Assembly: GCA_903896675.1 (NCBI GenBank) | Contig: CAITYU010000496.1 | Coordinates: forward strand, 1-42,417 | DNA: 42,417 nucleotides | Direction: 5' to 3' | From: an uncultured Planctomycetaceae bacterium | GTDB lineage: Bacteria > Planctomycetota > Planctomycetia > Planctomycetales > Planctomycetaceae | Shown here: piece after piece, positions 9,440 through 28,420 of the stretch | How positions within the stretch are numbered: position 1 is the stretch's first letter | Layout of the letters: every line of letters starts with the position of its first letter | The notes under the pieces: model-generated | The model's database searches: none | The model's input: the letters and a program-made list of their open reading frames with translations, nothing else | Told to the model about the DNA's origin: nothing | Position numbers and translations under genes: made by a program

Positions 9440-9762
9440 CGATTCCTCCCTGAACAACGTAAACTGAATCCAGAGTAACACTTGCAAAAAACACGGTTCA
9501 GCGGGCAGCAGTCCCGCCTGAGCGTCACCGGACTGTATGCTGACCTCCCCGTTTTCGCAAGACCTTCTAAACTTCCTGGAATTCTGGCGACGGAATTGGA
9601 GGGATTTTGCATGATTCGACGGTTGTTCTGCCGATAACGAATAACAGAAGTGTATCAGCAGGGGCGATCCCGGCAGGGATTTCGCCATCACAGACGCTGC
9701 TGAACCGTCGAGCAGTGAGGTGCCGGCGGTAATTCCGGGGGGGACACGAGGGAGTGGGATTC
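9440..9762. other. Divergent intergenic region with two hairpins
   Basis: A 323-bp gap between the minus-strand isomerase and the plus-strand lipoprotein gene. On the minus strand a stem of seven pairs with one bulged base (9499-9505 with 9513-9520, 7-nt loop) is followed 7 nt later by six T (A9486-9491 on the plus strand), which could act as a leader attenuator for the isomerase. On the plus strand a 9-bp stem with a 2-nt bulge (9663-9671 with 9676-9686, loop GGCA) sits in the leader of the lipoprotein gene. I found no convincing promoter and no ORF. Confidence 0.35.
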
Positions 9763-10137
9763 ATGCATCGATCGACGTTGACGCTGCTGCTTTCAGGAGC
9801 GATTGGGTTGCTGGCGACGGGCTGCGCGTCCACAACTCCGGAATTTCGTGGCCAGGGTCCTGGTGAGTGGTCTTCCGGTCCTGTCATGGTGCAGGGCTGC
9901 CCCAGCTGCCAGGGAACTGTCGGACATGGTGGCCACGTGATCCACGGTCAGAACTGTCCGCAGTCCGGCATGTGTCCGACCGGAAGTTGTAATCTTCCGT
10001 TCGTTCCGGTGCATCGCAACTTCCATACCTATACAACTCCGGATGGTCTGTCATATCCTCCGCAAAACGCGCCGCCGGCTGTCTATCAGTATCCGTACTA
10101 CACCCTGCGTGGGCCGACTGACTTCTTCATGAAGTAA
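9763..10137 (+). CDS. Small Cys/His-rich lipoprotein, function unknown
   Basis: A 124-residue predicted lipoprotein: a basic start, a hydrophobic stretch and a lipobox-like LLATGC with lipidated Cys21. The mature part has a metal-site-like cluster, CPSC (46-49), HGGH (55-58), His61, Cys65, Cys71 and Cys76, with many glycines. The C-terminal third is rich in Pro/Tyr and ends in YQYPYYTLRGPTDFFMK, which resembles tails I associate with short planctomycete envelope proteins, though I cannot name a family. Start is ATG 9763 with GAGGGAG about 9 nt upstream; the in-frame GTG at 9754 abuts that site and is less likely. A hairpin (10170-10201) separates it from the next gene. Confidence 0.72.
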   Translation: MHRSTLTLLLSGAIGLLATGCASTTPEFRGQGPGEWSSGPVMVQGCPSCQGTVGHGGHVIHGQNCPQSGMCPTGSCNLPFVPVHRNFHTYTTPDGLSYPPQNAPPAVYQYPYYTLRGPTDFFMK

Positions 10138-15263: not shown

Positions 15264-17813
15264 CTACTGCCGCACCAGGACCTCATCCAGATTCAGCATT
15301 GCCAGGCAGACAGCCGTCCATGCGGCGTGTTCAGTTTCCCTGATGGCATTGCTGCGAGGTGCCGCACCGGTGGTCAGCAGGACTTTTGCAGCCTCAGGAT
15401 CTGACTCATAAAGATCCTGCTGCCGCTGCAGCAGACGCCGCAGTACCGTCATGTCGGCAGCACTCGGAACCCGCCCTGCGACACGACGGAAGGCTGCCGT
15501 CAGACGACTGTCAGTGTCAGCAGCTTCCAGCAGACATCGTTCCGCCAGCACCCGAGCAGCCTCCACCCACGTCGGATCATTCAATGTCGTCAGAGCATGC
15601 AGTGGAGTGCTTGTGGGTGTCTGTCGCACTCGGCAAGCCTGCCGATTCGCAGCATCAAAGATGTTCGCCGGCCCGACGGTGCGACGCCAGAACGTGTACA
15701 GACTGCGACGATACAGATCTGCCCCGGATGAAGACGGATATGTGAAATCCCGCTCCTTCGTGATCGCCAGCGACTCCCAGATACCATCCGGCTGGTAGGG
15801 ATACACCGGCGGACCACCGATGCGTTCCTCCAGCAGACCTGCCGCAGCCAGCGCCCAGTCACGAAGAATCATCGCCGGCATTCGAAAACGACTGGCCCGT
15901 GCCAGCAAACGGTTCTCCGGATCACGCTGGTAAAGCTCAGGTGTGACTCGCGAAGACTGCCGATATGTCGCGCTGCTGACAATCAGTCTGTGCATCTGCT
16001 TGATGCTCCAGCCTCGCGATGGAAACTCCGTCGCCAGCCAGTCCAGCAACGGCAAATGTTCCGGATACTCGCTCTGAACTCCGAGATCTTCCGATGTCCG
16101 CACCAGGCCCGTCCCGAAAAAATACTGCCACATGCGGTTGACCTGGACACGCGCAGTCAGCGGATGCTCACCTGAAACCAGCCAGCGGGCAAAGCCCAGA
16201 CGATTCCGCGGAGCATCAGGGGGCAGGGGAGGCAGGAAGGCCGGCGTGGAAAACTCGACCTTTTCGCCAGGTGTCAGATACTCCCCACGATTCAGAATAC
16301 GAGTTTCACGGGGCTGAGCATCACTCATGATCATCACCCGAGGCAGTTGATCGGCCCGAAATTCCGCCAGTCGACGCACAGCATCTTCGCGCTGCCCAAT
16401 TGCCGGCACACGATCCTTCAGCGTCGGCAGAACCTTCTGGTCAAACAGCTTCCGCAGCTCGGTCTGCACGGCAGCCTCTTCCGCCATACTCCGCTCACTC
16501 GCGGGCTTTGATAACAGCAGTCTCAGAGCCTCCGGAATCGCACCCCCATCAGGCAGTGCGCCTGCCGTACCGACATGCCGCTGCCACTTATCAAAATCCA
16601 CCGCCGTCGCCGCGCGTATCTGCTCCTCAGCGCCAGTTACGACCGCCTGCAACTCCGACTGCCGCTGCAGCCACGATTCATTCGGCAGCTCCAGAAACGG
16701 AGCAGCCACACGAATGCGGGACGAAAAGTACTGTGGAGTCCCCGACTCAGGCACCCGATTGAATCCGTCCAGCAGGCTGTAATAGTCCCGCATGGTGATG
16801 GGGTCGTATTTGTGATCATGACACTGGGCACAGTTCATGGTCAGACCCAGCCACGTCGTCGCGGTTGTTTCCATGCGATCAAACAGAATCACCCACCGCT
16901 GCTCTTCCGGAATCGCACCGCCTTCACCATTCAGCAGATGATTCCGATTGAACCCACTTGCTGTCTTCTGTTCATTCGTTGCCTCAGGCAGCAGATCACC
17001 AGCCAGTTGCCAGATCGTCAATTGATCAAACGGCAGATCCTGATTCAGCGCACTCACCAGCCAGTCTCGCCAGATCCACTGCCACGTGTCGCCGTCCTGC
17101 TGGAATCCGTTACTGTCCGCATAACGAGCCGCGTCCAGCCACGGCAGCGCCATCCGCTCTCCATAATGCGGACTGACCAGCAGCCGATCCACCAGTCGCT
17201 CATAGGCCAGCGGATCCGTACTGGCCACGAAGGCATCCACCTCCTGAGGAGTCGGCGGCAGGCCCGTCAGATCAATTGACAAACGCCGAATCAATACAGC
17301 ACGATCAGCCTCAGGAGCCGGTTGCAAACCCTCAGCCTCCAGACGACTCAGGACAAAACTGTCAATCGGATTCCGGATCCACGCCGCGTTCCGCACACGC
17401 GGCTCCACCGGACGCTGCGGAGCCTCAAACGCCCAGTGAGTACTGTACTTCGCCCCCTGTCCAATCCACTGCTGCAACTTCTGCTTCTGCTGATCCGTCA
17501 GCACCCGACCGGAATTCGGCGGAGGCATCTGAAGGTCCGTATCACTGCTGTGAATACGCTGCAGCAGAACACTCTCAGACGTGTCAAACGGCACGATCGC
17601 TCCGCTGTCCACTGCGGCCTCACGCTGGTCCAGCCGCAAACCTCCCTGCCGCTTGTTCCCGTCCTGCCCGTGACAGTAAAAACAGTTCTCTGCCAGAATC
17701 GGACGGATTTCACGATTGAAATCAATTTCAGCATCATCGCCGCAAACCTGCGATGGTGCCATCACGCTGAGACAGACCAGCCCCGCCACGGCCACTGCAT
17801 GCCTGCGAATCAT
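15264..17813 (-). CDS. PSCyt1/DUF1549/DUF1553 planctomycete cytochrome-type protein
   Basis: An 849-residue exported protein: signal peptide (about residues 1-25), then a planctomycete cytochrome c domain with haem motif C44-x-x-C47-H48 and a plausible axial Met in LQMPPP. DUF1549 follows, including IDLTGLPPTPQEVDAF, and a second CxxCH (C328-x-x-C331-H332, in CAQCHDHKYDP). DUF1553 fills the C-terminal half (NRLGFARWLVSGEHPLTARVQVNRMWQ and TPTSTPLHALTTLNDPTWVEAARVLAER). These proteins are very abundant in planctomycetes and usually pair with a DUF1501 gene; their role is unknown. Here no DUF1501 partner is present. It begins only 12 nt after the DUF2141 gene at the 3' end of the carotenoid/ABC operon, so it is probably its last gene. 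Confidence 0.95.
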   Translation of the reverse strand: MIRRHAVAVAGLVCLSVMAPSQVCGDDAEIDFNREIRPILAENCFYCHGQDGNKRQGGLRLDQREAAVDSGAIVPFDTSESVLLQRIHSSDTDLQMPPPNSGRVLTDQQKQKLQQWIGQGAKYSTHWAFEAPQRPVEPRVRNAAWIRNPIDSFVLSRLEAEGLQPAPEADRAVLIRRLSIDLTGLPPTPQEVDAFVASTDPLAYERLVDRLLVSPHYGERMALPWLDAARYADSNGFQQDGDTWQWIWRDWLVSALNQDLPFDQLTIWQLAGDLLPEATNEQKTASGFNRNHLLNGEGGAIPEEQRWVILFDRMETTATTWLGLTMNCAQCHDHKYDPITMRDYYSLLDGFNRVPESGTPQYFSSRIRVAAPFLELPNESWLQRQSELQAVVTGAEEQIRAATAVDFDKWQRHVGTAGALPDGGAIPEALRLLLSKPASERSMAEEAAVQTELRKLFDQKVLPTLKDRVPAIGQREDAVRRLAEFRADQLPRVMIMSDAQPRETRILNRGEYLTPGEKVEFSTPAFLPPLPPDAPRNRLGFARWLVSGEHPLTARVQVNRMWQYFFGTGLVRTSEDLGVQSEYPEHLPLLDWLATEFPSRGWSIKQMHRLIVSSATYRQSSRVTPELYQRDPENRLLARASRFRMPAMILRDWALAAAGLLEERIGGPPVYPYQPDGIWESLAITKERDFTYPSSSGADLYRRSLYTFWRRTVGPANIFDAANRQACRVRQTPTSTPLHALTTLNDPTWVEAARVLAERCLLEAADTDSRLTAAFRRVAGRVPSAADMTVLRRLLQRQQDLYESDPEAAKVLLTTGAAPRSNAIRETEHAAWTAVCLAMLNLDEVLVRQ

Positions 17814-17825
17814 TTTCGCCCCCCA

Positions 17826-18407
17826 TCACTTCAGACGGATCGACAATTCATCAGGTTCCACCGGCACAACGATTGATGCATTGTCAAATCTCGGTGGTCC
17901 CAGAGCCCCCCGGGCATTGCGACTGAATCCATACGGTTCCACCGGGATCCCCAGCAGATTCTTTGAAAGCCTGCCATTTCCATCGATGTCCTGAAACACA
18001 GCCACCGCCTGCGGCTCACCCTCACGCAGATGCACTTCCACCTGCATGCGATCTCCCTCAACCTCCAGACGCTGCGTCTGCTCCGCCCGGTCCGTATTGG
18101 GAAAACCCGCTGCACCCGCAAAAACAGCCACGCAGAGATGTCCCGTGTCGGCCCGCAATCCACTGATCTCAAACATCACTCCGACAGCAGACTTCGCCGG
18201 CTCACTCCGCAGAGCCGATACCGTGACAACCATGGCACTGGCCGCCGCCCCTTCCACCAACGGCACTCCCACGCTCACCGAAGATCCCGTTTTCGCCGTT
18301 GACAGTACACCCCAGAGAACCAGCGGAGCCAGAATTCCCGCCAACGGCACCAGCCGAACGACCCCTGACGGTTGCGCAGCAATTCGCACGATTCCTCCCT
18401 GATCCAT
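17826..18407 (-). CDS. DUF2141 domain protein
   Basis: A 193-residue protein with one N-terminal hydrophobic helix (about residues 17-36, VRLVPLAGILAPLVLWGVL), either a membrane anchor or an uncleaved signal. The rest is a beta-rich DUF2141 domain: GHLCVAVFAGAAGFP, an AVAVFQDIDGNGRL segment with an EF-hand-like loop (Asp140, Asp142, Asn144) and the diagnostic IPVEPYGFSRNARG followed by LGPPRFDNA. DUF2141 proteins are small envelope proteins of unknown function. It lies 11 nt after the ABC permease and 12 nt before the cytochrome-type gene, so it probably belongs to the same transcript and acts on the extracytoplasmic side. Confidence 0.9.
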   Translation of the reverse strand: MDQGGIVRIAAQPSGVVRLVPLAGILAPLVLWGVLSTAKTGSSVSVGVPLVEGAAASAMVVTVSALRSEPAKSAVGVMFEISGLRADTGHLCVAVFAGAAGFPNTDRAEQTQRLEVEGDRMQVEVHLREGEPQAVAVFQDIDGNGRLSKNLLGIPVEPYGFSRNARGALGPPRFDNASIVVPVEPDELSIRLK

Positions 18408-18418
18408 GGAAATCTCCG

Positions 18419-19828
18419 TTAAAGTCCTCGTCTCCAGCGACCGCTCAAAAGCAGCGTAGCCAGTGACATCACCAGCGAACTTCCCAGCAGTACAGTCACC
18501 TCCGGCCGCAGACTCTCAATCGGTGACTGGAACCAGAACACCTTCTGGAAGCCATCCAGCGCCCATGCGTTGAATGTCCACCTCCCAAGTTCCTTCATCC
18601 GATCACTCATCACAAATCGCGGAATCATACTGCCACCCATCGCCGACATGCTCAGAATGATCACAGTGGCCGTCCCCTGCAGCTGCGATCGAGTTCGGCA
18701 GAGAGTCGCCATCAGCATGGCAAAGCTGGCCGTTGCTGCGGATGTGCAGCCAGCCATCACCAGAAATCCATCCAGATGCGACCACAAATGAATGCGAAAT
18801 ACAGCTTCAGCGAAAACAAACATCACAGACAACTGCAGACAACCCATCAGGAAGATACCCAGCCACTTCCCGGCAACGATCTGCAGCAGCCCGGCCTCAC
18901 TGACAAGAATTCGATCCAGCGTCCCGGATTCCGCTTCCTCCAGCATTGTTGCCGCATGCCCCGTGCACGCGAACAGCAGAAACAGCACCGCGATCCCCGC
19001 TGCGTACATGGCAATGCGAGGATTCTGCTGATCCGCAGCCTGCGGATTATCCACAGAAATCTGAGGTTCAGGCCCGGCCGTCAGCAAGTTCTCTGTATCC
19101 ACATCCACGACATCTGCAGACATCCCAGGTGCCGAATCCAGCGGCGGGTCCAGCACCGAAGCCGGCTGCTCAGCGGCCACCGGCGATAGCTCAGATTCGA
19201 CCGACGCTGGAGCTCCACTGCCGTCAAACACCCGGCGAGGCGATACCGGATCTCTGAAAAAACTGCCCTGACCCTCCGGATCATCCACCGCTGGCAGCGC
19301 GCGTTCTGCTGCTGCTGCTGCCACTTCTGCTGCTGCCTGCGCAGCATCCTGCAACTTTTCCACCACACCTTCAACCCGCTGCACGGCGTAGTATTCTTCC
19401 AGAATCGCTCGCACCATCGCCACCGCCATCGCATTCTGACCATCCGTCACAAGACGCACCTGAAACCGAGCTTCCTCAGCCGTCGAAAAGTCGGTCGGCA
19501 GTAACAGCAGCAGGTCATATCGACTGGAATTCTGAGCCTCCAGAATCACTCGCTCACGCCCCTCTGACTCCGTCGGTAACACCCCCAGATCCGTACAAAT
19601 CAGGGAGCTATTCTGCCGCAGCTCAGACTGCAGTTCCGCAGCAGCCACATTCCCCTCAGGAAGCAACAGTCCCAGTCGCACCGGCTTCTCAGTACCCGCC
19701 GCAATACCCTGACTGAAAATCATCGCAAAGATGCTGAAAAACAGCACGGGCATGACAAATACCAGCAGCAGTTCCAGCGGGTTATTCCGCAGCCGCAGAC
19801 AGGCAATACGCAGGAAGGTCAGGATCAT
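18419..19828 (-). CDS. ABC-2 type transporter permease
   Basis: A 469-residue integral membrane subunit of an ABC-2 exporter. One helix near the N-terminus (LELLLVFVMPVLFFSIFAMIF) is followed by a large extracytoplasmic part (about residues 45-275), then five or six helices in the C-terminal 190 residues (IAMYAAGIAVLFLLFACTG to LLGSSLVMSLATLLL), the ABC2_membrane_3 layout. Residues 160-265 of the loop are low-complexity: an Ala/Glu tract (AAQAAAEVAAAAAERA) and a Pro/Ser/Asp-rich stretch, probably lineage-specific disorder. Its ATG overlaps the ATPase stop by 4 bp (ATGA), so the two subunits are made together. The substrate is unknown; position after the carotenoid glycosyl- and acyltransferases suggests a lipid or carotenoid glycolipid. 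Confidence 0.9.
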   Translation of the reverse strand: MILTFLRIACLRLRNNPLELLLVFVMPVLFFSIFAMIFSQGIAAGTEKPVRLGLLLPEGNVAAAELQSELRQNSSLICTDLGVLPTESEGRERVILEAQNSSRYDLLLLLPTDFSTAEEARFQVRLVTDGQNAMAVAMVRAILEEYYAVQRVEGVVEKLQDAAQAAAEVAAAAAERALPAVDDPEGQGSFFRDPVSPRRVFDGSGAPASVESELSPVAAEQPASVLDPPLDSAPGMSADVVDVDTENLLTAGPEPQISVDNPQAADQQNPRIAMYAAGIAVLFLLFACTGHAATMLEEAESGTLDRILVSEAGLLQIVAGKWLGIFLMGCLQLSVMFVFAEAVFRIHLWSHLDGFLVMAGCTSAATASFAMLMATLCRTRSQLQGTATVIILSMSAMGGSMIPRFVMSDRMKELGRWTFNAWALDGFQKVFWFQSPIESLRPEVTVLLGSSLVMSLATLLLSGRWRRGL

Positions 19829-20748
19829 TCCCGCAGACTCCTTCCTGTCAGTGCCAGAAAGACGTCCTGCAGACCGAAACTGCGGACGTTGATCGCCTGT
19901 GGAGGTTCCGGCAGTCGCTGCAGAACCTCAAGTACCCCCGGCAGCTGCTGCATACTGGCCAGCCGGCAGACAGCCGTCAACCGCTGCTCATCAAACTCAA
20001 AATCCCGCAGTTCCACAGTACAGGCGTGCTGAAATGACAGCTCAACGCGGTGCGGCAGTCCGAGACTGGAGGCGACCAGCTGCGGCAGACGACCATCAGC
20101 CACGATCTGGCCATGATCCATCACCACAATTCTGTCGCAGCGAGTTTCCACTTCTTCCAGTTGATGCGTGGTCAGCAACACCGCCGTTCCGGCAGCCGTC
20201 AGTTCCTGCATCATCGCATAAATCCGCTCACGACTCTGCGGGTCCACTCCCACTGTCGGTTCATCCAGCAACAGCACCGCCGGACGATGCAGCACACTAC
20301 AGGCAATGTTCAGCCTTCGCTGCATGCCACCGGACAGGGTTCGAGCCAGACTGCGGCGGCGGTCCCGCAAAGCAGACCAGTCCAGCACTTCATCAATTCG
20401 CTGCTGCAGTGCAGCCCCCCGCACACCCTCCAGTCGCCCGAATACCTCCAGATTCTGCTGCACTGTCAGATCCGGATAAACGGCCAGATTCTGCGGCACC
20501 AGCCCCGGACGGGAAGCTCGGGATCCCCGAAAACTGTCCGGAATCCGCAGCGAAATGCTCCCCTCATCCGGTTTTAACAACCCGCAGATGCAGCGAATCA
20601 TCGTGGTTTTACCGGCACCGTTCGGACCGAAAAAACCCAGCAATTCCCCCGGAAACAACTGCAGCGAGATTCCCTGCAGCGCAGCCCTGCCTCGGTACGA
20701 TTTCCGCACCGCCTGCAACGTCAGAATGGGCTGATGTTCCTGAGTCAT
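19825..20748 (-). CDS. ABC transporter ATP-binding protein
   Basis: A 307-residue ATPase with a complete set of motifs: Walker A GPNGAGKTT (41-49), Q-loop Gln86, signature LSGGMQRR (138-145), Walker B VLLLDEP (158-164) and H-loop His195. About 80 residues after the core form a C-terminal extension (RVELSFQHACTVEL to LALTGRSLRE), as in DrrA/NodI-like ABC-2 exporters. It powers the permease encoded immediately downstream. The start is ATG 20748: it overlaps the glycosyltransferase stop codon by 4 bp (ATGA), and the glycine- and serine-rich open extension to 20877 lies inside that gene. The coupling at both ends places the transporter firmly in the carotenoid-type operon. Confidence 0.93.
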   Translation of the reverse strand: MTQEHQPILTLQAVRKSYRGRAALQGISLQLFPGELLGFFGPNGAGKTTMIRCICGLLKPDEGSISLRIPDSFRGSRASRPGLVPQNLAVYPDLTVQQNLEVFGRLEGVRGAALQQRIDEVLDWSALRDRRRSLARTLSGGMQRRLNIACSVLHRPAVLLLDEPTVGVDPQSRERIYAMMQELTAAGTAVLLTTHQLEEVETRCDRIVVMDHGQIVADGRLPQLVASSLGLPHRVELSFQHACTVELRDFEFDEQRLTAVCRLASMQQLPGVLEVLQRLPEPPQAINVRSFGLQDVFLALTGRSLRE

Positions 20749-21917
20749 GAAGACAGAGTTTCGTAGCTTCGCTGCCGCCACTGCACCGCTCGACCGCGTT
20801 TCTGATCCACCCACGCGGTCCACTGAATCGCAAGAAACAGCACAACCGCCACCGGATGCAGCAGTGCACCCAGCCACGCCCGGTCATATCGCAGGCAACA
20901 GATTACGCGTGGAAGGTAACCGCAAAGCAGCCCGATTGCCACTGCCCGCCTCGCGTCCTCCGGCAACTGCCCGACTGCCCCAACGACCATCAGCATCGGA
21001 GGAAACACAAAAGCCGCAGCCATCACCAGCGTGATCATCGGCAGGGCCGGCCAGCGAGCAAATCCTTCCGTCGCGTTTTTCAGCAATCCCTGCCACGTCT
21101 CGCTCAGTGACTGATACATCCGGCACGTCGCAAGGTCTGATGCGTCAAAGATGTCCGTCTTCAGACCGGCACGCCGGTACAGCCGTGGAAGCATCACGCC
21201 GTCATGCCGCGAATCCCGGATGCCACTGTGGCCACCGGTCTGCAGATACCCCGCTCGCTCCGCCGCAAAAAACTGCCCGCACCCCGCCGATGCTCCCGGC
21301 ATACGGCTCCAGCGCATCAGCGGAAACGGCAAAAAACACAGTAAAATTACATGAATCAGCGGAATCAACAGTGATTCCCCCAACGAAACTGTCAGTTGCC
21401 GCGGAAATCCACTCAGCAGCGACACCCCCAGATTCCGCCGCAGCTCAACAGTTCGCACCAGTGCGTCACTCGACAACTCCACATCTGCATCCAGAAACAC
21501 CAGCTCGGTGTAACGGGCCGACTGCGCCAGTTGCCAGCAGGCATGCTGCTTGCCATTCCAGCCACCCGGCATCCGCACCCCCCGCAACAGCCGCACACGC
21601 GAGTCTGCCACGGCAAAACGCCCCACAATCTCCGCTGTTCCGTCCGTGCTTTCGTCATCCAGCACGCACACCTCAAGCTGCACACCACGACTGGACAGCA
21701 CGGACTGCAGTAACTTCGCAATACGCTCCGCTTCATTGCGAGCTGGTATCAGCACCGACACCTCCGGCCCGCTGCAGTCCTCTTGAACTGCCGATGCTGC
21801 CAACTCATGGACGCCGGGAGCCCGGCGAAACATCAGCGTACTCACCACGAACTGCATGGCACCAAAACAGGCCGCCGCGCAGCTGCCGAAGGCAACAACT
21901 GCCAGCACACTAGCCAT
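20745..21917 (-). CDS. CrtQ-like family 2 glycosyltransferase
   Basis: A 390-residue membrane-associated GT-A enzyme. One N-terminal helix precedes the catalytic domain, with VSVLIPARNE (53-62), CVLDDESTDGTAEIV and the metal-binding DAD (143-145); two to three helices follow near the C-terminus. GGWNGKQHACWQ, a TGGHSGIRDSRHDG segment and CRMYQSLSETWQG parallel blocks I recall from Staphylococcus CrtQ, which attaches glucose to the carboxyl group of a C30 carotenoid acid; the related hopanoid protein HpnB is the main alternative. Start is ATG 21917 with AGGAGG six nt upstream, overlapping the acyltransferase by 8 bp; in-frame ATG 21932 and TTG 21944 are less likely. Genes for the presumed aglycone lie directly upstream. 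Confidence 0.85.
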   Translation of the reverse strand: MASVLAVVAFGSCAAACFGAMQFVVSTLMFRRAPGVHELAASAVQEDCSGPEVSVLIPARNEAERIAKLLQSVLSSRGVQLEVCVLDDESTDGTAEIVGRFAVADSRVRLLRGVRMPGGWNGKQHACWQLAQSARYTELVFLDADVELSSDALVRTVELRRNLGVSLLSGFPRQLTVSLGESLLIPLIHVILLCFLPFPLMRWSRMPGASAGCGQFFAAERAGYLQTGGHSGIRDSRHDGVMLPRLYRRAGLKTDIFDASDLATCRMYQSLSETWQGLLKNATEGFARWPALPMITLVMAAAFVFPPMLMVVGAVGQLPEDARRAVAIGLLCGYLPRVICCLRYDRAWLGALLHPVAVVLFLAIQWTAWVDQKRGRAVQWRQRSYETLSS

Positions 21918-22695
21918 CCTCCCCCTCCTCATGTCGCCCGGCAAATTTCTGCCCGCGTCGCCAGAAGGTCACACGACGCCAGATATCATACCAGCCACCC
22001 ACTCCGGATCGGCCAGCCAGCAGCGTCCTGAAAGACGCCGGATCACGCCCGATTGCCAGTAACCGCAGCCGCTCCTGCACGGTCTGCAGGCCGGCCTCCA
22101 ACTGCCTCGTACGCTCATCCCGATCATCTGCCAGCTGCGAACAATCAATCACCGTTCCAAAAGCCGCAAGAAACTCCGGACGCCGCTCATTCCAGAACGG
22201 ATACTCCAGAGCCATCGGCAGTACAACTCCGCCAAACTTCCGATCCACCAGATGCGCCAAACCCGGCTGAAAGGGCAGGGGCTGACGCACATCATGAAAA
22301 TGCCCCGTCGGTGTAATCCACAGAGCTGTCTGAGAATCCTGCAGGACAACGCGAGCATTCCGGAGAAACTCGCGAGCCCCCGAGATCGAATCACGCGAAA
22401 CACCAAAAAAACCCAGTCGCTCCAGTATCGGATAACGCGTCAACGCCACGGCATCCATCGGCGCCGCAAACTGGCGGGGCGACAGCAGCAGGTCCGTCAT
22501 CAGCACGGCCGCCATCGGGTCCCACCAGCCCGGATGGTTCACATACACCACCAGCGACCTCTCACCGATCTGCTGCAGTGCCTCGTGACCCACCACCCGA
22601 ACCGCATTGAAGTTCGAACGCACGAATCTCCTCACATAACGTCGGAAACCCCGGTTCAGAACCCGCGACAGCAGTCCGGAAACCGGATTGCTCAC
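21910..22695 (-). CDS. PlsC-like acyltransferase (possible CrtO-type role)
   Basis: A 261-residue lysophospholipid-acyltransferase-like protein with the HX4D motif at His54-Asp59 (VNHPGWWDPMAAV), a GFFGVSRDS block, an ITPTGHF segment where the family usually has a Glu-Gly motif, and VVLPMALEYPFW. Family members move an acyl chain from acyl-CoA or acyl-ACP to a hydroxyl. In the context of a CrtQ-like glycosyltransferase the likely acceptor is the sugar of a carotenoid glycosyl ester, the step CrtO performs in staphyloxanthin synthesis, though S. aureus CrtO itself is a different kind of acyltransferase. Start is GTG 22695 with GGAGG 5 nt upstream; it overlaps the preceding TGA by 4 bp (GTGA). 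Confidence 0.85.
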   Translation of the reverse strand: MSNPVSGLLSRVLNRGFRRYVRRFVRSNFNAVRVVGHEALQQIGERSLVVYVNHPGWWDPMAAVLMTDLLLSPRQFAAPMDAVALTRYPILERLGFFGVSRDSISGAREFLRNARVVLQDSQTALWITPTGHFHDVRQPLPFQPGLAHLVDRKFGGVVLPMALEYPFWNERRPEFLAAFGTVIDCSQLADDRDERTRQLEAGLQTVQERLRLLAIGRDPASFRTLLAGRSGVGGWYDIWRRVTFWRRGQKFAGRHEEGEDG

Positions 22696-24248
22696 GCTGC
22701 CCTCCGTGATGAGTCCCGCCGAGTTCCCGTGCGACCTCCGTTCAGATCCGCATCCACCGAATCCGCAGCGATCCACCCCGACATCATCACCATCGGCATC
22801 CCCGGACCGGGATGCGCTGACCCACCCGCCAGATATAAACCCGGCAGCTCGCGGACACGATTCCCCGGCTTGAAGGCCCCCATGAATCGTCCATGACTGG
22901 CCAATCCGTAAATCGCGCCGTGAAGCACGTGATATCGCTGATTGATTCCGGCCGGAGTCAGAGAATGTTCGACCTCGATCCGGTCCTCAATATCCCCCAT
23001 GCCCGCCGTCCGCTTCAGCTTGTCAATAATCACCTGTCGATAACCCGGCAGCATCTTCGTCCAGTCATGATGCGGGCGCAGATACGGAGTATGAACAAGA
23101 ACATACAACGCCTCACCGTCACCCGGAGCCACTCGATCACCGGACAATGACGGCGCACAGACATAGCACGTCGGGTCCGCAGCGGGTTCACCAGCCGAAT
23201 AGATCTGCCGAAACTCCTCATGCGGATCCTGACTGAACACAAAATTGTGATGCAGCAGATGATCGTACCGCTGCTTCAATCCCAGATACAGCACCACCCC
23301 CGAACAAGCCGCTTCAAATGAGCGTTTTGACAGCATCTTCTGCGCCGTATCGCGCGGCAGCAACTCCTCACACGTGCGAACACAGTCCGAGTTGGAAACC
23401 ACCACCTGCGAACGCAGCACTTCGCCGTTGTCCAGAGTCACACCAATGGCGCGACCACGTTCCGTGTCCACAGAACGCACCTGATGACCAGTCACACAGC
23501 GAACACCCAATTCCTGCGCCAGACGCGTCAGAGCTTCAGGCACCGCCCGCGTCCCGCCCAGCGGATACCAGATGCCCTCATTGGTCTGCATGTGAGCAAT
23601 TCCGCACAGCACCGCCGGAGACTGCTCGGGCGAGGATCCCACATACTGTGTGAAGTGATCCATCATCTGGGCAATTCGGGAATCCGGAATATGCGATCGC
23701 ACCAGCCCTGCTACCGTACGACCAAAACGCAGGCTCAACAGGTCTTTCAGGACACCCAGCGACATCGACTGCCGCAGGTTCATCGTGTCAGCAATACCAC
23801 CCACACTCTTCCAGAAAAAAAATCGCTGCGACACGTCATCCAGTTGTCGCGAAATGGACATGAATTTTTCATAACCCCGCCCGGTTTCCTCACCACCCGT
23901 GAACTCCTGCAGATGCTGCTGCATCTCCGGCAGTGACTCCACCAGATCAAACTTCGATCCATCCTCAAAGAAGCAGCGCCACTGGGGATCCAGACGGATC
24001 ATCGTCAGATAGTCTTCCAGACGCCGACCGGCCTCCTCAAAGACTCGCCGCAGGACCGAAGGCAGAGTCAGAATGGTCGGCCCCATATCAAACCGATAAC
24101 CACGATCCGTCAGCAAAGCAGCCTTGCCACCCAGCCACGGATTCTTCTCCACAAGCGTCACCGCATATCCACGGGCCGCCAGAGTACAGGCTGCTGCCAG
24201 CCCGGCCAGACCACTGCCAACCACCACAGCATCCGTTCGCTCAGTCAT
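22692..24248 (-). CDS. CrtI-family carotenoid desaturase/oxygenase (CrtP-like)
   Basis: A 518-residue FAD-dependent protein with the dinucleotide-binding fold VVGSGLAGLAAACTLAARGY near the N-terminus followed by LVEKNPWLGGKAALLTDRGYRFDMGPTI-type residues, the phytoene-desaturase hallmark. The C-terminal signature is LYLAGGSAHPGPGMPMVM, the wording I associate with enzymes that oxidise the terminal methyl group (CrtP, diapolycopene oxygenase) rather than the GGGTHPGSGLP form of desaturases. With the aldehyde dehydrogenase just upstream, a role in making a carotenoid aldehyde that is then oxidised to the acid is likely. Start is ATG 24248 with GGAG about 8 nt upstream; it overlaps the aldehyde dehydrogenase by 8 bp. 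Family certain, reaction inferred. Confidence 0.9.
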   Translation of the reverse strand: MTERTDAVVVGSGLAGLAAACTLAARGYAVTLVEKNPWLGGKAALLTDRGYRFDMGPTILTLPSVLRRVFEEAGRRLEDYLTMIRLDPQWRCFFEDGSKFDLVESLPEMQQHLQEFTGGEETGRGYEKFMSISRQLDDVSQRFFFWKSVGGIADTMNLRQSMSLGVLKDLLSLRFGRTVAGLVRSHIPDSRIAQMMDHFTQYVGSSPEQSPAVLCGIAHMQTNEGIWYPLGGTRAVPEALTRLAQELGVRCVTGHQVRSVDTERGRAIGVTLDNGEVLRSQVVVSNSDCVRTCEELLPRDTAQKMLSKRSFEAACSGVVLYLGLKQRYDHLLHHNFVFSQDPHEEFRQIYSAGEPAADPTCYVCAPSLSGDRVAPGDGEALYVLVHTPYLRPHHDWTKMLPGYRQVIIDKLKRTAGMGDIEDRIEVEHSLTPAGINQRYHVLHGAIYGLASHGRFMGAFKPGNRVRELPGLYLAGGSAHPGPGMPMVMMSGWIAADSVDADLNGGRTGTRRDSSRRAA

Positions 24249-25764
24249 CGAATTGCTCCTTCCCCGTTTCACGCCTGCGACGCCAGTTCCACTGCTGCCA
24301 CGCTGCCCGCATCAGCCCCGGCAGTCGCAGCACACGCCGACCGATCCAACCCGCATGCTCCACACCAATCAAACGCTCAAGCAGCACAGCATCACACGGC
24401 CCCGCATCCTGCAGATGCGGCCGAAAGAATGGCCGCGGCCGAATCATCTGCTTCACCTGCACAAACTCCAGCAATCCTGCTTCACCGCGAGTCGCCCCGA
24501 AACCACTGGCATGCCGTCCTTCAAAGGAAACACGAGGATCCGCTGTAACAGCAATCATATCATTCAATACCACCGTCCCGGCATCCACCTTTCGTGCAAT
24601 TCTCAGCGCATTCGCCGTTCCACCGAAAACTGTCGACGCCAGCGAATACGCACATGCTCGCGACTGCTCAAGTGCCTCCTCCTCGTCCCCCACTCGCAGC
24701 ACCGACAACACCGGAAAAAACAGATCTTCGCGAGCCACCAGCATTTCCGGTCGCACAAAATCCAGAATCATCGGAATCACCGCCGGCGAATTTTTGTTGA
24801 CATCAGGCAGTGAACCTGATCTCAGCACCGCTCCCTGCTGCAACGCCTCACGCACCACCCCCAGAGCATGGCGAACAGCCGACGCCTCCCGGTCACCACA
24901 CGGCTCCGGACAACTGCGGGATCCTCCCGCCGCCGCAATCCGCCCACGCAGTCGCTCCAGTAATTGCTCCGCCTGCTCCCGACGCACAAACACCCGACGA
25001 GGCGCCAAACACGTGCGACCGCCGTTTAAACGCAACCCAAACCACAGACAGTCAGCCACCAGCCCAAAATCCGCATCCTCCAGCACAAACACCGCGTCAC
25101 AGCCGGACAGTTCCATCACCGCAGGTATCGGTCCCGCTGCCAGTTGACCAGCCACCAGACGACCGGTACTCGCCGACCCCGTCAACACAACCTTGTCAAC
25201 ACCACACCCCAGCGCCTCGGAACCCGCCGCCGTCGAGTCCTCCAGAAGTTGGACAAGCCCCTCCGGCAATCCTGACTCAATCGCCATCTGCAACAACAAC
25301 CGCAGCGGCCCGGCACATCCCGGAGCCGGCTTCAGCAACACGCCATTCCCGGCCGCCAGCGCCTGCACCAGCTGCACCCCCGGCAGATACAGCGGGTAAT
25401 TCCCAGGACCAATCACCAGCACCACACCCAATGGCTCAGGACGCCGAATCAACCGGTTACCCCACAGCCACAGCGGTCGGCCAGCCGGACGAACACGCCG
25501 CTCCCGCAACAGACGCACCGCACAACGCTCCAGATACCGCACTGCATCCAGCAGCGGCAGGACTTCCGCCGACAACGTTTCCGCTGCAGACTCACGCCCC
25601 ACCGCCAGCGCTAGTTCGCCCGCTCGATCTGCAGCCCGCAAACGCAGACGCCTCAACACCCGCAGTCGCTGACGCACGGGAATCTCACTCCAGCTTCGCT
25701 GCACCTGACGACAGCCTGCCAGACACTCCCGCACACCGCTCACAGATGTCAGCCCGGACATCAT
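24241..25764 (-). CDS. Aldehyde dehydrogenase (carotenoid aldehyde oxidation likely)
   Basis: A 507-residue NAD(P)-dependent aldehyde dehydrogenase with general-base Glu218 in VMELSGCD and nucleophile Cys252 in NGGRTCLAP, the usual 34 residues apart; PLGVVLVIGPGNYPLYLP, LLKPAPGC and VVLTGSASTGR form the cofactor site. The last 60 residues extend past the catalytic domain with an Arg/Trp-rich tail (WQQWNWRRRRETGKEQ). It sits between two CrtI-family genes, as does aldH/crtNc-type function in C30 carotenoid pathways, where it converts a terminal carotenoid aldehyde to the carboxylic acid that is later glycosylated. The ATG at 25764 overlaps the preceding stop by one base (TGATG); a second ATG lies one codon in. 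Confidence 0.92.
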   Translation of the reverse strand: MMSGLTSVSGVRECLAGCRQVQRSWSEIPVRQRLRVLRRLRLRAADRAGELALAVGRESAAETLSAEVLPLLDAVRYLERCAVRLLRERRVRPAGRPLWLWGNRLIRRPEPLGVVLVIGPGNYPLYLPGVQLVQALAAGNGVLLKPAPGCAGPLRLLLQMAIESGLPEGLVQLLEDSTAAGSEALGCGVDKVVLTGSASTGRLVAGQLAAGPIPAVMELSGCDAVFVLEDADFGLVADCLWFGLRLNGGRTCLAPRRVFVRREQAEQLLERLRGRIAAAGGSRSCPEPCGDREASAVRHALGVVREALQQGAVLRSGSLPDVNKNSPAVIPMILDFVRPEMLVAREDLFFPVLSVLRVGDEEEALEQSRACAYSLASTVFGGTANALRIARKVDAGTVVLNDMIAVTADPRVSFEGRHASGFGATRGEAGLLEFVQVKQMIRPRPFFRPHLQDAGPCDAVLLERLIGVEHAGWIGRRVLRLPGLMRAAWQQWNWRRRRETGKEQFDD

Positions 25765-27326
25765 CAGGCCACCCGCTTCGAAGACAAGGGCAGCAGATCA
25801 ACTCCCGAAATCGGCACGTCCGGCTCCGGGAAAGACAGCCCCAGCTCAGCACACAGCATCCGACAGGAAATTCTCGCCGACTCGTAAATCACCGGTAGTC
25901 CACTGCCCGGATGAGTCCCCCCGCCGGCCAGATACACATGCTCCAGATCCTCAAATCGATTGTGCGGACGACGATGCAGCATCTGGCCCAGATTATGAGC
26001 CAGATTGAACGTGGCACCACGATAAATGCGGAATCCATGCTGCCAGTCATCCGGAGTCAGCACCTTTTCAAAAACAATACGCTGCTCCAGATCCTGCAGA
26101 CCCACTCGCTGCAGCTGCTGCAGCACCCGCGCACGAAACCCCTGCGAATCCCGCTGCCAGTTCACTCGAGGTGATTCATGCGGTACCGGCACCAGCACGT
26201 ACAAAGTGCTGCGACCTTCAGGGGCCAGAGTTCTGTCAGTGATACAGGCGTTCTGTACATAAAACGACGGATCACTCGGCAAGACCCCCTCCGCATCAAT
26301 CTCCCGCAGATTCCGTTCATAATCCTGCGAAATGTAGATCGTGTGATGCGGCAGATCCGGGAAACTGCCCTCCATCCCCAGATACATCATCCACGTGGAA
26401 CAGGAATAACGACTGCGAGCCAGACGCTGATTCGACCAGCGCCGACGAAGTGTGTCAGGTACCAGCCGCTGCATTGCCGCAGCAAAATCCGCATTGATCA
26501 CCAGAGCATCAAAATTGTGCCGCTGGCCACCCGCCGTCTCCAGACCCACCGCACGACGACCCTCAAAATGCAGTTTCGTCACCTCCTCATTCAAACGGAT
26601 GTCAGCACCCAGCTGCCCTGCCACCTGCGCCATCCGCTCACTGACCGCGGCACACCCCCCGGTCGGATGCCAGACCCCATACTCATACTCCAGAAATGCC
26701 AGTATCGTGAACAGACTGGGACACTGAAACGGCGACATCCCGAGGTATTTCGACTGAAACGAAAAAGCCGTGATCAGCCGGGGATCCGAAAAATGAGCCA
26801 TCAGATCACCTGCCACAGAACGCCACGGACGCACCATCGGTACGGCTTTCAGCACCGACGGGCGCACGAGGTCCAGCAGCGAATTGAACGGAGACTCGAG
26901 GATCGGACGAAACAACTCCAGCTTCCGCCGATTCTCGTTCAAAAACCCCTCAAAAGCCTCGGCATCCTGCAGATTGATACCGGCAATCTGCTGCTTCATC
27001 CGCTGAATATCCGGTGTCGCATCAATGCGACCACCCGCACCAAACTCCAGACGGTACTGCGGGTCCAGACGAGTCATCGGGCATTCAGCCCGCAGATCAC
27101 GCCCCACCGCCTGAAAAATCTCGTCCAGCACCCGCGGATACAGGAAGAACGTGGGGCCGTGATCAAAACGAAAACCTTCAGCCTCCAGCGCCGAACAACG
27201 CCCCCCAGGTCGCGCCAGCCGATCAATTACTGTGACTTCCGCACCAGCTTTTGCCAGCAGCATCGCCGACGCCAGACCACCGGGACCAGCCCCGATCACG
27301 CAAACTCTGTTGCCTCGCTTCGCCAT
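25764..27326 (-). CDS. CrtI-family carotenoid desaturase (CrtN-like)
   Basis: A 520-residue FAD-dependent desaturase. The N-terminal Rossmann motif is VIGAGPGGLASAMLLAKAG, followed by ARPGGRCSALEAEGFRFD and HGPTFFLYP; the C-terminal signature LAGGGTHPGSGLPVIYES is typical of phytoene/diapophytoene desaturases such as CrtI and CrtN. It would introduce conjugated double bonds into a C30 (or C40) backbone made by the synthase encoded just upstream. HpnE-type squalene-forming enzymes are a related alternative. The ATG at 27326 lies about 50 nt after a possible promoter (27377-27405), so this gene may be transcribed separately from the synthase as well as with it. The next gene overlaps its stop by one base. 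Confidence 0.93.
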   Translation of the reverse strand: MAKRGNRVCVIGAGPGGLASAMLLAKAGAEVTVIDRLARPGGRCSALEAEGFRFDHGPTFFLYPRVLDEIFQAVGRDLRAECPMTRLDPQYRLEFGAGGRIDATPDIQRMKQQIAGINLQDAEAFEGFLNENRRKLELFRPILESPFNSLLDLVRPSVLKAVPMVRPWRSVAGDLMAHFSDPRLITAFSFQSKYLGMSPFQCPSLFTILAFLEYEYGVWHPTGGCAAVSERMAQVAGQLGADIRLNEEVTKLHFEGRRAVGLETAGGQRHNFDALVINADFAAAMQRLVPDTLRRRWSNQRLARSRYSCSTWMMYLGMEGSFPDLPHHTIYISQDYERNLREIDAEGVLPSDPSFYVQNACITDRTLAPEGRSTLYVLVPVPHESPRVNWQRDSQGFRARVLQQLQRVGLQDLEQRIVFEKVLTPDDWQHGFRIYRGATFNLAHNLGQMLHRRPHNRFEDLEHVYLAGGGTHPGSGLPVIYESARISCRMLCAELGLSFPEPDVPISGVDLLPLSSKRVA

Positions 27327-27376
27327 CCGTGCTGCGCCCTCTTGCTGGTCTCAGACCACTTCACTCCGTTTCCCGA

Positions 27377-27405
27377 ATTATGCCGATTCGCGAAAACACG
27401 TACAA
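27377..27405 (-). promoter_or_regulatory. Possible sigma70-type promoter ahead of the CrtN-like gene
   Basis: On the minus strand TTGTAC (27405-27400) and CATAAT (27382-27377) are 17 bp apart. The -10 matches consensus in five of six positions, the -35 in only three. It lies in the only long gap (101 nt) of the operon, about 50 nt before the ATG at 27326. Confidence 0.35.
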
Positions 27406-27426
27406 TGCCGAAACCCCGCTACAGAT

Positions 27427-27444
27427 CTCAGGCAGAATCCTGAG
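27427..27444 (-). other. Hairpin at the 3' end of the synthase gene
   Basis: CTCAGG and CCTGAG form a perfect 6-bp stem with a 6-nt loop, overlapping the last codons and stop of the synthase. No T-tract follows on the minus strand, so it is not a canonical terminator; it could cause pausing or protect an mRNA end. Confidence 0.3.
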
Positions 27445-28420
27445 AATCGACGGCTGATTCCAGAATACTGAACACTTCACTGCGACTCAGCTTCGCACCC
27501 GCTCCACGCTGCCGCAGTGCCTCAAGGGAACCCTCAGCAAGTCGACTGATGAAACGACAGAACGCCAGCACATCCGCTGACGCCCCCAGAGTCTCCAACT
27601 GACCAATATACTCCCCAGCCGCTATTCCACTGGACTCGGCCAGCGACAGCACCGTTTCCCGGGACACACCCACCGGGATAAAACATCGCCCCAGCCGGAC
27701 GTCCCCCTCCGAATCCTTCAGAATGTTCACCAACTGCAGGAACTCACCAAAACCCACCGCCAGCTCCCGCAAACGCCCCAGTTGCTGCCCGGAAACCGCA
27801 GACTGCAGAAAAAACAGTTCCGTCAGCATCTCCCCCACAATTCCCGCCACGAAATAACAGTACAGCCGCAATTCCGCGACGGTCTCCATCCGGATTTCTG
27901 CACCGCGAGCCGATCCGGAGCTGAGAAAATCCAGCATCCCCCCAATCGTGCGATCCAAAGCACCTCGAATACAGGCCACTGCAGCCGGTGGCAACTGATG
28001 AAACAAACGCAGCAGCCTCGGAGCCGCCACCATCAGTCGCTCTGTCGCACTACCCGCAGGCCACAACCCATCAAAACCGTCCCCAATTGCCCCCGACTCA
28101 AAACGGCCTTCCACCGTCGACTGCAGACAGGCACGCAGCCGCTGCAACAGCACGTGCCGGCGATCCGCAGCAACCCCCGCAGCATCCTCAATGCTGTCAG
28201 CGACCCGAAACAGCAGATAGGCAATCCCCACCTGATGCCGCAGTTCAGTGCCCAGCAACGGAATCGCCAGCGCAAACGTACGACTGGTCTCCTGCAGTGA
28301 ACGGCTCAGAAATTGCAGATCGTCTTCATTGGTGTCCACCACGCCAGCCCCCACTTCCAGCACTGCACTCTTTGCTTGCGCGGATCCGCACAGTCCCGCC
28401 CGGATCCTATCCCAGCCCAC
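27428..28420 (-). CDS. Squalene/phytoene synthase family protein
   Basis: A 330-residue all-helical trans-isoprenyl-diphosphate synthase (head-to-head type) that condenses two farnesyl or geranylgeranyl diphosphates to (dehydro)squalene or phytoene. The two Asp-rich motifs are DSIED (75-79) within LLFRVADSIED and DSEGD (236-240) within LVNILKDSEGD; CFIPVG follows. The second motif and its surroundings look closer to eukaryotic-type squalene synthase than to CrtB (usual NILRDVGED). It is the first gene of the carotenoid-type operon and supplies its backbone; no HpnC/HpnD/HpnE set is seen here. GTG 28420, with AGGA 5 nt upstream, is used as start; in-frame GTGs at 28363, 28354 and 28342 are alternatives because homology begins near residue 30. 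Confidence 0.9.
   Translation of the reverse strand: MGWDRIRAGLCGSAQAKSAVLEVGAGVVDTNEDDLQFLSRSLQETSRTFALAIPLLGTELRHQVGIAYLLFRVADSIEDAAGVAADRRHVLLQRLRACLQSTVEGRFESGAIGDGFDGLWPAGSATERLMVAAPRLLRLFHQLPPAAVACIRGALDRTIGGMLDFLSSGSARGAEIRMETVAELRLYCYFVAGIVGEMLTELFFLQSAVSGQQLGRLRELAVGFGEFLQLVNILKDSEGDVRLGRCFIPVGVSRETVLSLAESSGIAAGEYIGQLETLGASADVLAFCRFISRLAEGSLEALRQRGAGAKLSRSEVFSILESAVDSQDSA

Follow-up and report, generated by a model that had tools for sequence, protein, structure and literature searches.

Does a bacterial carotenoid operon encode, in addition to the enzymes that make the pigment, a transporter that moves it across the cell envelope? Hundreds of bacteria produce carotenoids, and some of them are thought to place these pigments in their outer membranes. 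No bacterial transporter dedicated to carotenoids is known to us, and a text search of the open-access literature (subscription literature being outside its scope) found no description of one. The question is raised by a nine-gene operon in the window, the whole stretch of 42,417 nucleotides from an uncultured Planctomycetaceae bacterium analyzed here, in which carotenoid genes are followed by a pair of ABC transporter genes.

All nine genes named in the initial annotation were found on the minus strand, between positions 17826 and 28420, and are given below from the first gene onwards, together with the neighbor of the last one.

27428..28420, minus strand: squalene/phytoene synthase family gene ('crtM'), first gene (PF00494)
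25764..27326, minus strand: CrtN-like desaturase (TIGR02734 crtI_fam, 525.7 bits)
24241..25764, minus strand: aldehyde dehydrogenase in the AldH role (PF00171; 1-bp overlap)
22692..24248, minus strand: CrtP-like oxidase (TIGR02734, 389.5 bits), kept in relatives
21910..22695, minus strand: PlsC-type acyltransferase (PF01553), with a GTG start within a GTGA overlap
20745..21917, minus strand: family 2 glycosyltransferase, HpnB/CruG-like (PF00535; TIGR03469 and NF045692 below cut-off)
19825..20748, minus strand: ABC ATPase of the carotenoid-linked clade A (PF00005; trees; nearest PDB entries ABCA7/3/4/1)
18419..19828, minus strand: ABC-2 permease of the carotenoid-linked clade A (PF12698; trees; fold)
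17826..18407, minus strand: secreted or membrane-anchored DUF2141 protein (PF09912, 86.4 bits; single genome copy; beta-rich core model)
15264..17813, minus strand: PSCyt1/DUF1549/DUF1553 (planctomycete cytochrome C) gene (Pfam), a neighbor outside the conserved unit

Overlaps of 1 to 8 bp between consecutive genes are real, their number being six rather than the seven first counted: crtN/aldH (1 bp, TGATG), aldH/crtP (8 bp), crtP/acyltransferase (4 bp, GTGA), acyltransferase/glycosyltransferase (8 bp), glycosyltransferase/ATPase (4 bp, ATGA) and ATPase/permease (4 bp, ATGA), the last also present in all 14 relatives fetched. The synthase is separated from crtN by a gap of 101 bp, and the permease from the DUF2141 gene by one of 11 bp. 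These sizes rest on start codons picked from the sequence; the synthase GTG start at 28420 is uncertain, with alternative in-frame GTG codons at 28363, 28354, 28342 and 28339, and for crtP the ATG at 24248 was chosen, the mechanical ORF beginning at 24272. The DUF1549/DUF1553 gene, which starts 12 bp past DUF2141, was rejected as a tenth member of the operon, as it adjoins DUF2141 in only two of 14 relatives, the closest ones (L112 and L113).

The predicted enzyme set fits the synthesis of an acylated, glycosylated C30 carotenoid, in agreement with the initial annotation. Its gene family labels hold in general, yet the one-to-one match that it drew to the enzymes of staphyloxanthin synthesis fails, and this template was dropped for two enzymes. 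The acyltransferase matches only PF01553 in Pfam and nothing in NCBIfam, so that the CrtO-family acyltransferase of staphyloxanthin-type pathways was not recovered from either collection. The synthase, when compared with PDB sequences, is closer to squalene synthases (best E 3.3e-16) than to the Staphylococcus aureus dehydrosqualene synthase CrtM (best E 1.4e-6), and all of its NCBIfam matches fall below their cut-offs. Because of these two enzymes, the pathway is, as judged from sequence, nearer to the Methylobacterium extorquens type than to staphyloxanthin. The clustering of CrtN, CrtP, a family 2 glycosyltransferase and a PlsC-type acyltransferase that marks the former type was found here; its supply of squalene through HpnCDE was not, as the window genome has no PF00494 match besides the operon synthase. 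The same is true of eight relatives, while two other genomes (G288 and G313) have no synthase at the locus and two strong PF00494 genes elsewhere.

The ABC and crt genes are clearly conserved together in relatives, the reverse of the outcome that the initial annotation had named as counting against its proposal. All 15 genomes with a crtP of at least 74% identity (the window and L112-L125) retain the order glycosyltransferase-ATPase-permease. Permease trees were built from chosen sets of 34, 36 and 28 rows. All 18 sampled members of the clade that holds the window permease (clade A, support 100/99) lie near carotenoid genes, and the nearest unlinked permease, L033, is placed outside it. The ATPase tree places the window ATPase in the corresponding clade, where 27 of 27 rows are carotenoid-linked (100/99) after exclusion of six long-branch or near-copy rows (L099, L011, L026, L143, L087, L088); with new members from C40 clusters added and seventeen more near-copy or distant unlinked rows left out, the result is 25 of 25 (99/99). 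In the ATPase trees linkage was defined as crtN or crtP within 8 kb, three short copies of known linked loci (L223, L224, L003) were set to linked by hand and duplicate rows were removed. All clade A loci were read over wider stretches, and many unlinked loci with 1.5-kb flanks only.

Clade A spans Planctomycetota and Alphaproteobacteria and both C30 and C40 pathways. With C30 genes it occurs in 17 of the 20 Methylobacterium regions read (from 59 genomes with crtP), in the order crtN-DUF2141-ATPase-permease-crtP-plsC-glycosyltransferase, and also in Microvirga ossetica and Botrimarina colliarenosi. With C40 genes it was found in family f60 (four planctomycete genomes), in two further genomes, G582 and G686, which carry crtY-crtI-crtB and crtZ-crtW-permease-ATPase-crtE, and in Neorhizobium sp. 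SOG26 (ATPase-permease-crtW-crtZ). Carotenoid genes were also reached when they were not used as query: a Methylobacterium permease alone, searched against 376 genomes of the Methylobacterium class, matched in eight, two of them Methylobacterium, and carotenoid clusters came up first outside that genus. Intact carotenoid genes stand beside the ABC pair at three of the six non-Methylobacterium loci, a crtP remnant reduced to a 28-residue C-terminal piece at one (L307), and none were found at the other two.

Since ABC-2 pairs are common (each genome has between 5 and 20 matches to PF12698; a 17-kb stretch is expected to hold about 0.03), some operons could carry one by chance or hitch-hiking, without functional meaning. 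Some of the crt-linked ABC genes outside clade A and a smaller lineage, clade B (L132, L136, L169, L186, L196, L087, L088, L099), could well have arisen in this way. For clade A this explanation is largely rejected by the complete linkage of permeases and ATPases in differing arrangements, the order kept throughout the close clade and the 376-genome search, and as an account of the operon we regard it as very improbable. The agreement of trees, gene order and search strongly supports the ABC-2 pair as a component of the carotenoid pathway, as the initial annotation had supposed.

The association has limits. An ABC gene pair lies within about 5 kb in 11 of 80 named crtP loci, and a clade A pair in seven of the 80, many of them on short contigs; carotenoid synthesis therefore does not require the pair, and most C30 loci sampled are without one. 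Clade A was not seen in the stretch read of 12 family members with crtP 61-66% identical (three stretches end just past crtP and two hold other ABC genes). In Methylobacterium, one locus with crtN and crtP (L291) has no clade A pair, and another (L287) has none within the range read. Carotenoid genes were not found in two of the four plasmid records matched. The crt-linked ABC genes outside both clades count against a single carotenoid-ABC origin.

What the pair transports was approached through its type and its genomic company. ATPase motifs, an ABC2_membrane_3 permease and a type V fold identify it as an ABC-2 (type V) transporter. The nearest solved ATPases are those of ABCA7, ABCA3, ABCA4 and ABCA1, and the permease fold (a moderate model, pLDDT 68.7) and its nearest solved relatives point mostly to lipid transporters, with NosFY and further non-lipid transporters also matching. 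By this kinship to ABCA/ABCG/ABCH-type lipid transporters, an export function may be proposed. A DrrAB-like multidrug efflux or self-protection pump, co-regulated with the pigment genes, would agree with the best NCBIfam match of the ATPase, drrA, although its 223 bits lie under the cut-off of 312. Such a pump seems improbable, as the pair is linked to carotenoid enzymes rather than to antibiotic clusters and we know of no need of self-resistance against carotenoids.

A more serious alternative, to which we give a minor though appreciable likelihood, is that the pair helps the pathway indirectly, by transporting a precursor, a toxic by-product or an envelope lipid other than the carotenoid, or by flipping a lipid inward. 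Pair and pathway would then be inherited together because cells that are pigmented and exposed to light have need of both. The nearest solved ATPases and folds are those of general lipid transporters; ABCA4, one of the matches, moves its retinoid lipid inward; and the pair accompanies chemically unlike end products, acyl-glycosides and probable C40 keto/hydroxy carotenoids. An indirect role fits less well with a single gene lineage that tracks carotenoid genes over two phyla and several gene orders, where the only other gene family shared by the clusters is DUF2141, present in some of them.

The same range of end products bears on the cargo of a carotenoid exporter. Searched by tblastn, the window glycosyltransferase and PlsC-type acyltransferase had no match in the f60 and Neorhizobium C40 loci; the glycosyltransferase-like (GT2) gene and epimerase gene that lie divergent from crtY in L304 and L305 belong, we think, to polysaccharide synthesis. 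As orthologous ABC pairs occur in these C40 clusters, the cargo is probably carotenoid in general and not strictly the carotenoid glycolipid first suggested.

DUF2141 is likewise linked to carotenoid genes. The window protein scores 86.4 bits against a gathering cut-off of 24.4. In all 11 genomes tested that carry the operon, DUF2141 has no second copy, and the family recurs within other carotenoid clusters; G100, G301 and Botrimarina, although they hold clade A, lack it. A Poisson estimate for DUF2141 was set aside, as its 20 genomes had in part been selected in the knowledge that DUF2141 lay at their crt locus. A functional reading from its fold failed: Foldseek returned nothing at E 0.001 or better, and the best structural match at a second look, a secretin pilot protein (Z 7.7, middling), may reflect a common beta-sandwich arrangement only.

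Taken together, we consider it fairly likely that the product of the operon is a C30 carotenoid bearing a sugar and an acyl group, and that an exporter for this pigment is encoded alongside the enzymes. The squalene-synthase-like enzyme would supply a C30 precursor, to be desaturated by CrtN and oxidized at one end to a carboxylic acid by CrtP and AldH; the glycosyltransferase would then attach a sugar on the cytoplasmic side and the acyltransferase a fatty acid. The ATPase and the permease, the latter probably a homodimer given the single permease gene, would take the completed pigment out of the cytoplasmic leaflet of the inner membrane and into its periplasmic leaflet, probably assisted on the periplasmic side by DUF2141. 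The recurrence of relatives of both beside carotenoid genes raises the tentative idea, rather less likely than not, that bacteria have a dedicated pigment-moving envelope machine, in which carotenoid-specific ABC-2 exporters (lineage A and the smaller lineage B; C30 and C40; Planctomycetota and Alphaproteobacteria) cross the inner membrane and, in some, DUF2141 is a secreted carrier or acceptor towards the outer membrane, with a logic like that of Lpt or Lol. With an ABC lineage and a secreted DUF2141 tracking carotenoid genes over two phyla and two pathway types, the passage of carotenoids across or out of the inner membrane becomes testable in the tractable Methylobacterium; if true, this would provide the first functional hypothesis for DUF2141 and an export module for carotenoid engineering.

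Among known systems, the staphyloxanthin operon of S. aureus resembles this one in the order of chemical steps and differs in its CrtO-type acyltransferase, unmatched here, and in its CrtM synthase; to our knowledge it has no ABC pair. The ABC-2/type V transporters ABCH-9C, ABCA1/4/7, ABCG, NosFY and TarGH share the permease fold or are among the nearest solved ATPases, at about 7-19% identity among the permease alignments listed, and we know of none for bacterial carotenoids. In Sphingomonadales, DUF2141 adjoins carotenoid genes too, beside crtG and with unknown function, in clusters of the C40 pathway (PMC5989583; also PMC9241875); the accessible text of PMC5989583 does not contain the word 'transporter'. 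Azospirillum brasilense Sp7 has the same crt set, its hpnCDE and crtNPOQ loci specifying a dispensable squalene-mediated carotenoid pathway (PMC13274349, whose accessible text does not contain 'DUF2141'); at an A. brasilense locus (L213) DUF2141 lies past the glycosyltransferase gene and no ABC pair was found. Planctopirus limnophila, of the same phylum, is described as reaching C30 carotenoids through squalene, supplied there by HpnCDE (Santana-Molina et al. 2022, as cited in PMC12078418 and PMC10448405).

The closest parallel is M. extorquens AM1, which shares CrtN, CrtP, the family 2 glycosyltransferase and the PlsC-type acyltransferase, and in which the last two were genetically shown to make octadecenoyl-glucosyl diapolycopenedioic acid (PMC10448405). 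According to the accessible part of that report, squalene comes from HpnCDE and the AldH candidates tested had no effect, whereas here a squalene-synthase-like gene and AldH lie inside the operon; neither 'transporter' nor META1p3666 to META1p3669 occurs in its text. These four genes lie between crtP (3665) and crtN (3670), and by analogy with the 17 Methylobacterium regions in which crtN and crtP flank DUF2141 and the clade A pair, they would include the counterparts of the DUF2141 gene and the ABC pair described here.

The nine operon genes, which the initial annotation had placed on one strand, occupy the minus strand from 17826 to 28420 of the window, and all six enzyme identities are backed by Pfam and NCBIfam. 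The annotation had also counted seven consecutive overlapping junctions, but exact junction lengths give six in a row.

Genes of the operon, in order, all on the minus strand (17826-28420), with the junction that follows each
Squalene/phytoene synthase; 101-bp gap to crtN
CrtN-like oxidase (CrtI family); 1-bp overlap with aldH
Aldehyde dehydrogenase (aldH); 8-bp overlap with crtP
CrtP-like oxidase (CrtI family); 4-bp overlap with the acyltransferase gene
PlsC-type acyltransferase (plsC); 8-bp overlap with the GT gene
Family 2 glycosyltransferase (GT), HpnB/CruG-like; 4-bp overlap with the ATPase gene
ABC ATPase; 4-bp overlap with the permease gene
ABC-2 permease; 11-bp gap to the DUF2141 gene
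DUF2141 (PF09912) protein; 12-bp gap to the next gene

The ATPase/permease overlap is kept in all 14 close relatives fetched. A PSCyt1/DUF1549/DUF1553 gene (15264-17813) lies 12 bp past DUF2141, an adjacency found only in the two closest relatives. The operon synthase is nearer to squalene synthases than to CrtM, as judged by comparison with solved structures. Since it is the sole PF00494 gene in the window genome and eight relatives, and since two genomes whose locus has the same ABC operon without a synthase (G288, G313) carry two strong PF00494 genes elsewhere, we infer that it has assumed the HpnC/HpnD role.

A search of 150 family genomes gave crtP-like matches (E 1e-40 or better) in 31, and crtP was at least 74% identical in 15 genomes, window included. 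All 15 keep the order GT-ATPase-permease, so that the association of ABC and crt genes on which the initial annotation had staked its proposal holds among close relatives. In the 12 genomes with 61-66% crtP identity, the carotenoid-linked ATPase and ABC-2 permease lineage that contains the window pair (clade A) was seen in none of the stretches read, three of which end just past crtP; two of these genomes (G290, G265) have ABC genes of other lineages. In G301 the pair lies directly behind crtN, and crtP is missing. At locus L139 (8601-12519) a CrtN-like gene, with peptidase M28 and amine oxidase genes upstream, is followed by a clade A pair; crtP, GT and acyltransferase genes are absent from its surroundings.

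In an ATPase tree of 79 rows, one clade of 27 (support 100/99) was entirely carotenoid-linked (27/27), a row counting as linked if it had crtN or crtP within 8 kb or was a short copy of such a locus. With new members added, all 25 clade A rows were linked (99/99), as were all 18 in the permease tree (100/99), and the top-scoring unlinked permease of the phylum search (L033, genome G003) was placed outside. Clade A comprises the window group, G301, G100, Botrimarina colliarenosi and four planctomycetes of family f60, together with Methylobacterium, Microvirga ossetica, two more genomes of the Methylobacterium class and Neorhizobium. A small second lineage, B (L084, L086, L306, L307; permease-tree support 100/100), is divergent from an adjoining crtN in three of its four members; the fourth has only a crtP remnant. 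In that locus, L307, what is left of crtP is a 28-residue C-terminal piece (574-657), separated by 0.7 kb from an ABC pair that is intact. No further crtN or crtP match occurs in the 13 kb of sequence read; the pathway may have been lost here while its transporter stayed. The crt-linked ABC genes in neither lineage (L132, L136, L169, L186, L196, L070, L087, L088, L099) may reflect chance or separate recruitments. The carotenoid-associated ABC-2 lineage itself is real and conserved.

ABC2_membrane_3 matches number 5-20 per genome (20 genomes), or about 0.03 per 17 kb. Among the 80 named crtP loci listed, ABC genes lie at a distance of up to about 5 kb in 11, seven of them clade A; the pair is therefore an accessory of some carotenoid operons and not universal.

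Clade A pairs also occur in C40 clusters, which argues for carotenoids in general as the cargo and not the glycosylated, acylated C30 product alone for which the initial annotation had proposed an exporter. In G116, G147, G189 and G383 the pair lies beside lycopene cyclase, crtI, crtB, crtZ-like hydroxylase or polyprenyl synthase genes; in one planctomycete C40 locus (L036, 4691-5104) a DUF454 gene separates permease from lycopene cyclase. Within the Methylobacterium class, 376 genomes were searched with the Methylobacterium permease, carotenoid genes playing no part in the query; eight matched, two being Methylobacterium. The two best others, G582 and G686, have crtY-crtI-crtB on one strand and crtZ-crtW-permease-ATPase-crtE on the opposite one (L304 8066-12365; L305 8245-12538), probably a keto/hydroxy-carotenoid cluster. 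Past crtY lie a GT2-like gene with an MshEN domain and a UDP-GlcNAc 2-epimerase gene. In G548 crtN adjoins the pair, in G661 only a crtP remnant is near it, and at the matched loci of G746 and G823 carotenoid genes were not found. The same permease matched four plasmid records: Microvirga ossetica (DUF2141-ATPase-permease, then ispH, synthase, GT2, acyltransferase and crtI), Neorhizobium sp. SOG26 (ATPase-permease-crtW-crtZ), Leptolinea, with no annotated carotenoid gene, and Rhizobium gallicum, where carotenoid queries gave no match.

DUF2141 was surveyed in 20 whole genomes. All 11 of the window clade have a single PF09912 gene, sited at the operon, and the nine others have none. A DUF2141 match lies within the stretch in 15 of the 80 named crtP loci listed, between crtN and the ABC genes in Methylobacterium, behind crtN in Microvirga, and behind GT in Azospirillum and Acetobacteraceae. 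Twenty named-locus genomes, partly picked knowing of DUF2141 at the crt locus, hold 18 copies in 13 genomes, nine of these copies being at that locus. Of seven plasmid copies with neighbours inspected (24 records), three lie inside C30 clusters (Microvirga, Gluconobacter, Palleronia), one adjoins a carotenoid oxygenase gene (Alisedimentitalea) and three are not next to any carotenoid gene (Azotobacter, Comamonas, Roseomonas). The Alisedimentitalea genes share a 4-bp overlap (L316, 5902-7832). DUF2141 adjoins crtG in C40 producers, according to two reports (PMC5989583; PMC9241875). Counting against linkage, DUF2141 was not found in G100, G301 and Botrimarina, which have clade A ABC genes. Alphaproteobacterial copies begin with apparent signal peptides, as judged by eye. 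In a Microvirga locus (L201, ~8700-9950), an open frame flanked by DUF2141 and crtP resembles, by eye, a SAM-dependent methyltransferase and could correspond to the unassigned methyltransferase postulated for M. extorquens PA1; in M. ossetica an annotated gene of this type adjoins crtI.

The permease, modelled from a 17-row alignment (pLDDT 68.7, pTM 0.56), has the ABC-2/type V layout of one helix, a large extracytoplasmic domain and five or more helices. Its top structural match is ABCH-9C with ceramide (Z 22.6, yet rmsd 13), other close folds being ABCA4/ABCA1/ABCA7 (Z ~20-22), NosFY and ABCG. The ATPase conserves its ATP-binding motifs, and its nearest solved sequences are ABCA7, ABCA3, ABCA4 and ABCA1. 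As the GT would draw on cytoplasmic sugar nucleotides, its product would stay on the inner leaflet, where an exporter makes sense; the pair is likely such an exporter. To our knowledge this lineage has not been described before, and a search of the open-access literature turned up no description.

All 59 Methylobacterium genomes searched have crtP. Among 20 regions read, 17 show crtN-DUF2141-ATPase-permease-crtP-plsC-GT; L289 has the ABC pair with neither crtN nor DUF2141 in range, L291 has crtN and crtP without ABC genes, and L287 has neither crtN nor ABC genes in range. In some, a glutamine amidotransferase-like gene separates permease from crtP (L282, 6003-7013). M. extorquens AM1 is the best experimental model for the window pathway: in its description (PMC10448405), a GT and a PlsC-type acyltransferase complete octadecenoyl-glucosyl diapolycopenedioic acid, as established by deletion and complementation, and a CrtO homologue was not found. 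The same paper gives crtP as META1p3665 and crtN as META1p3670 and makes no mention of the four locus numbers between, among which DUF2141 and the ABC pair presumably lie.
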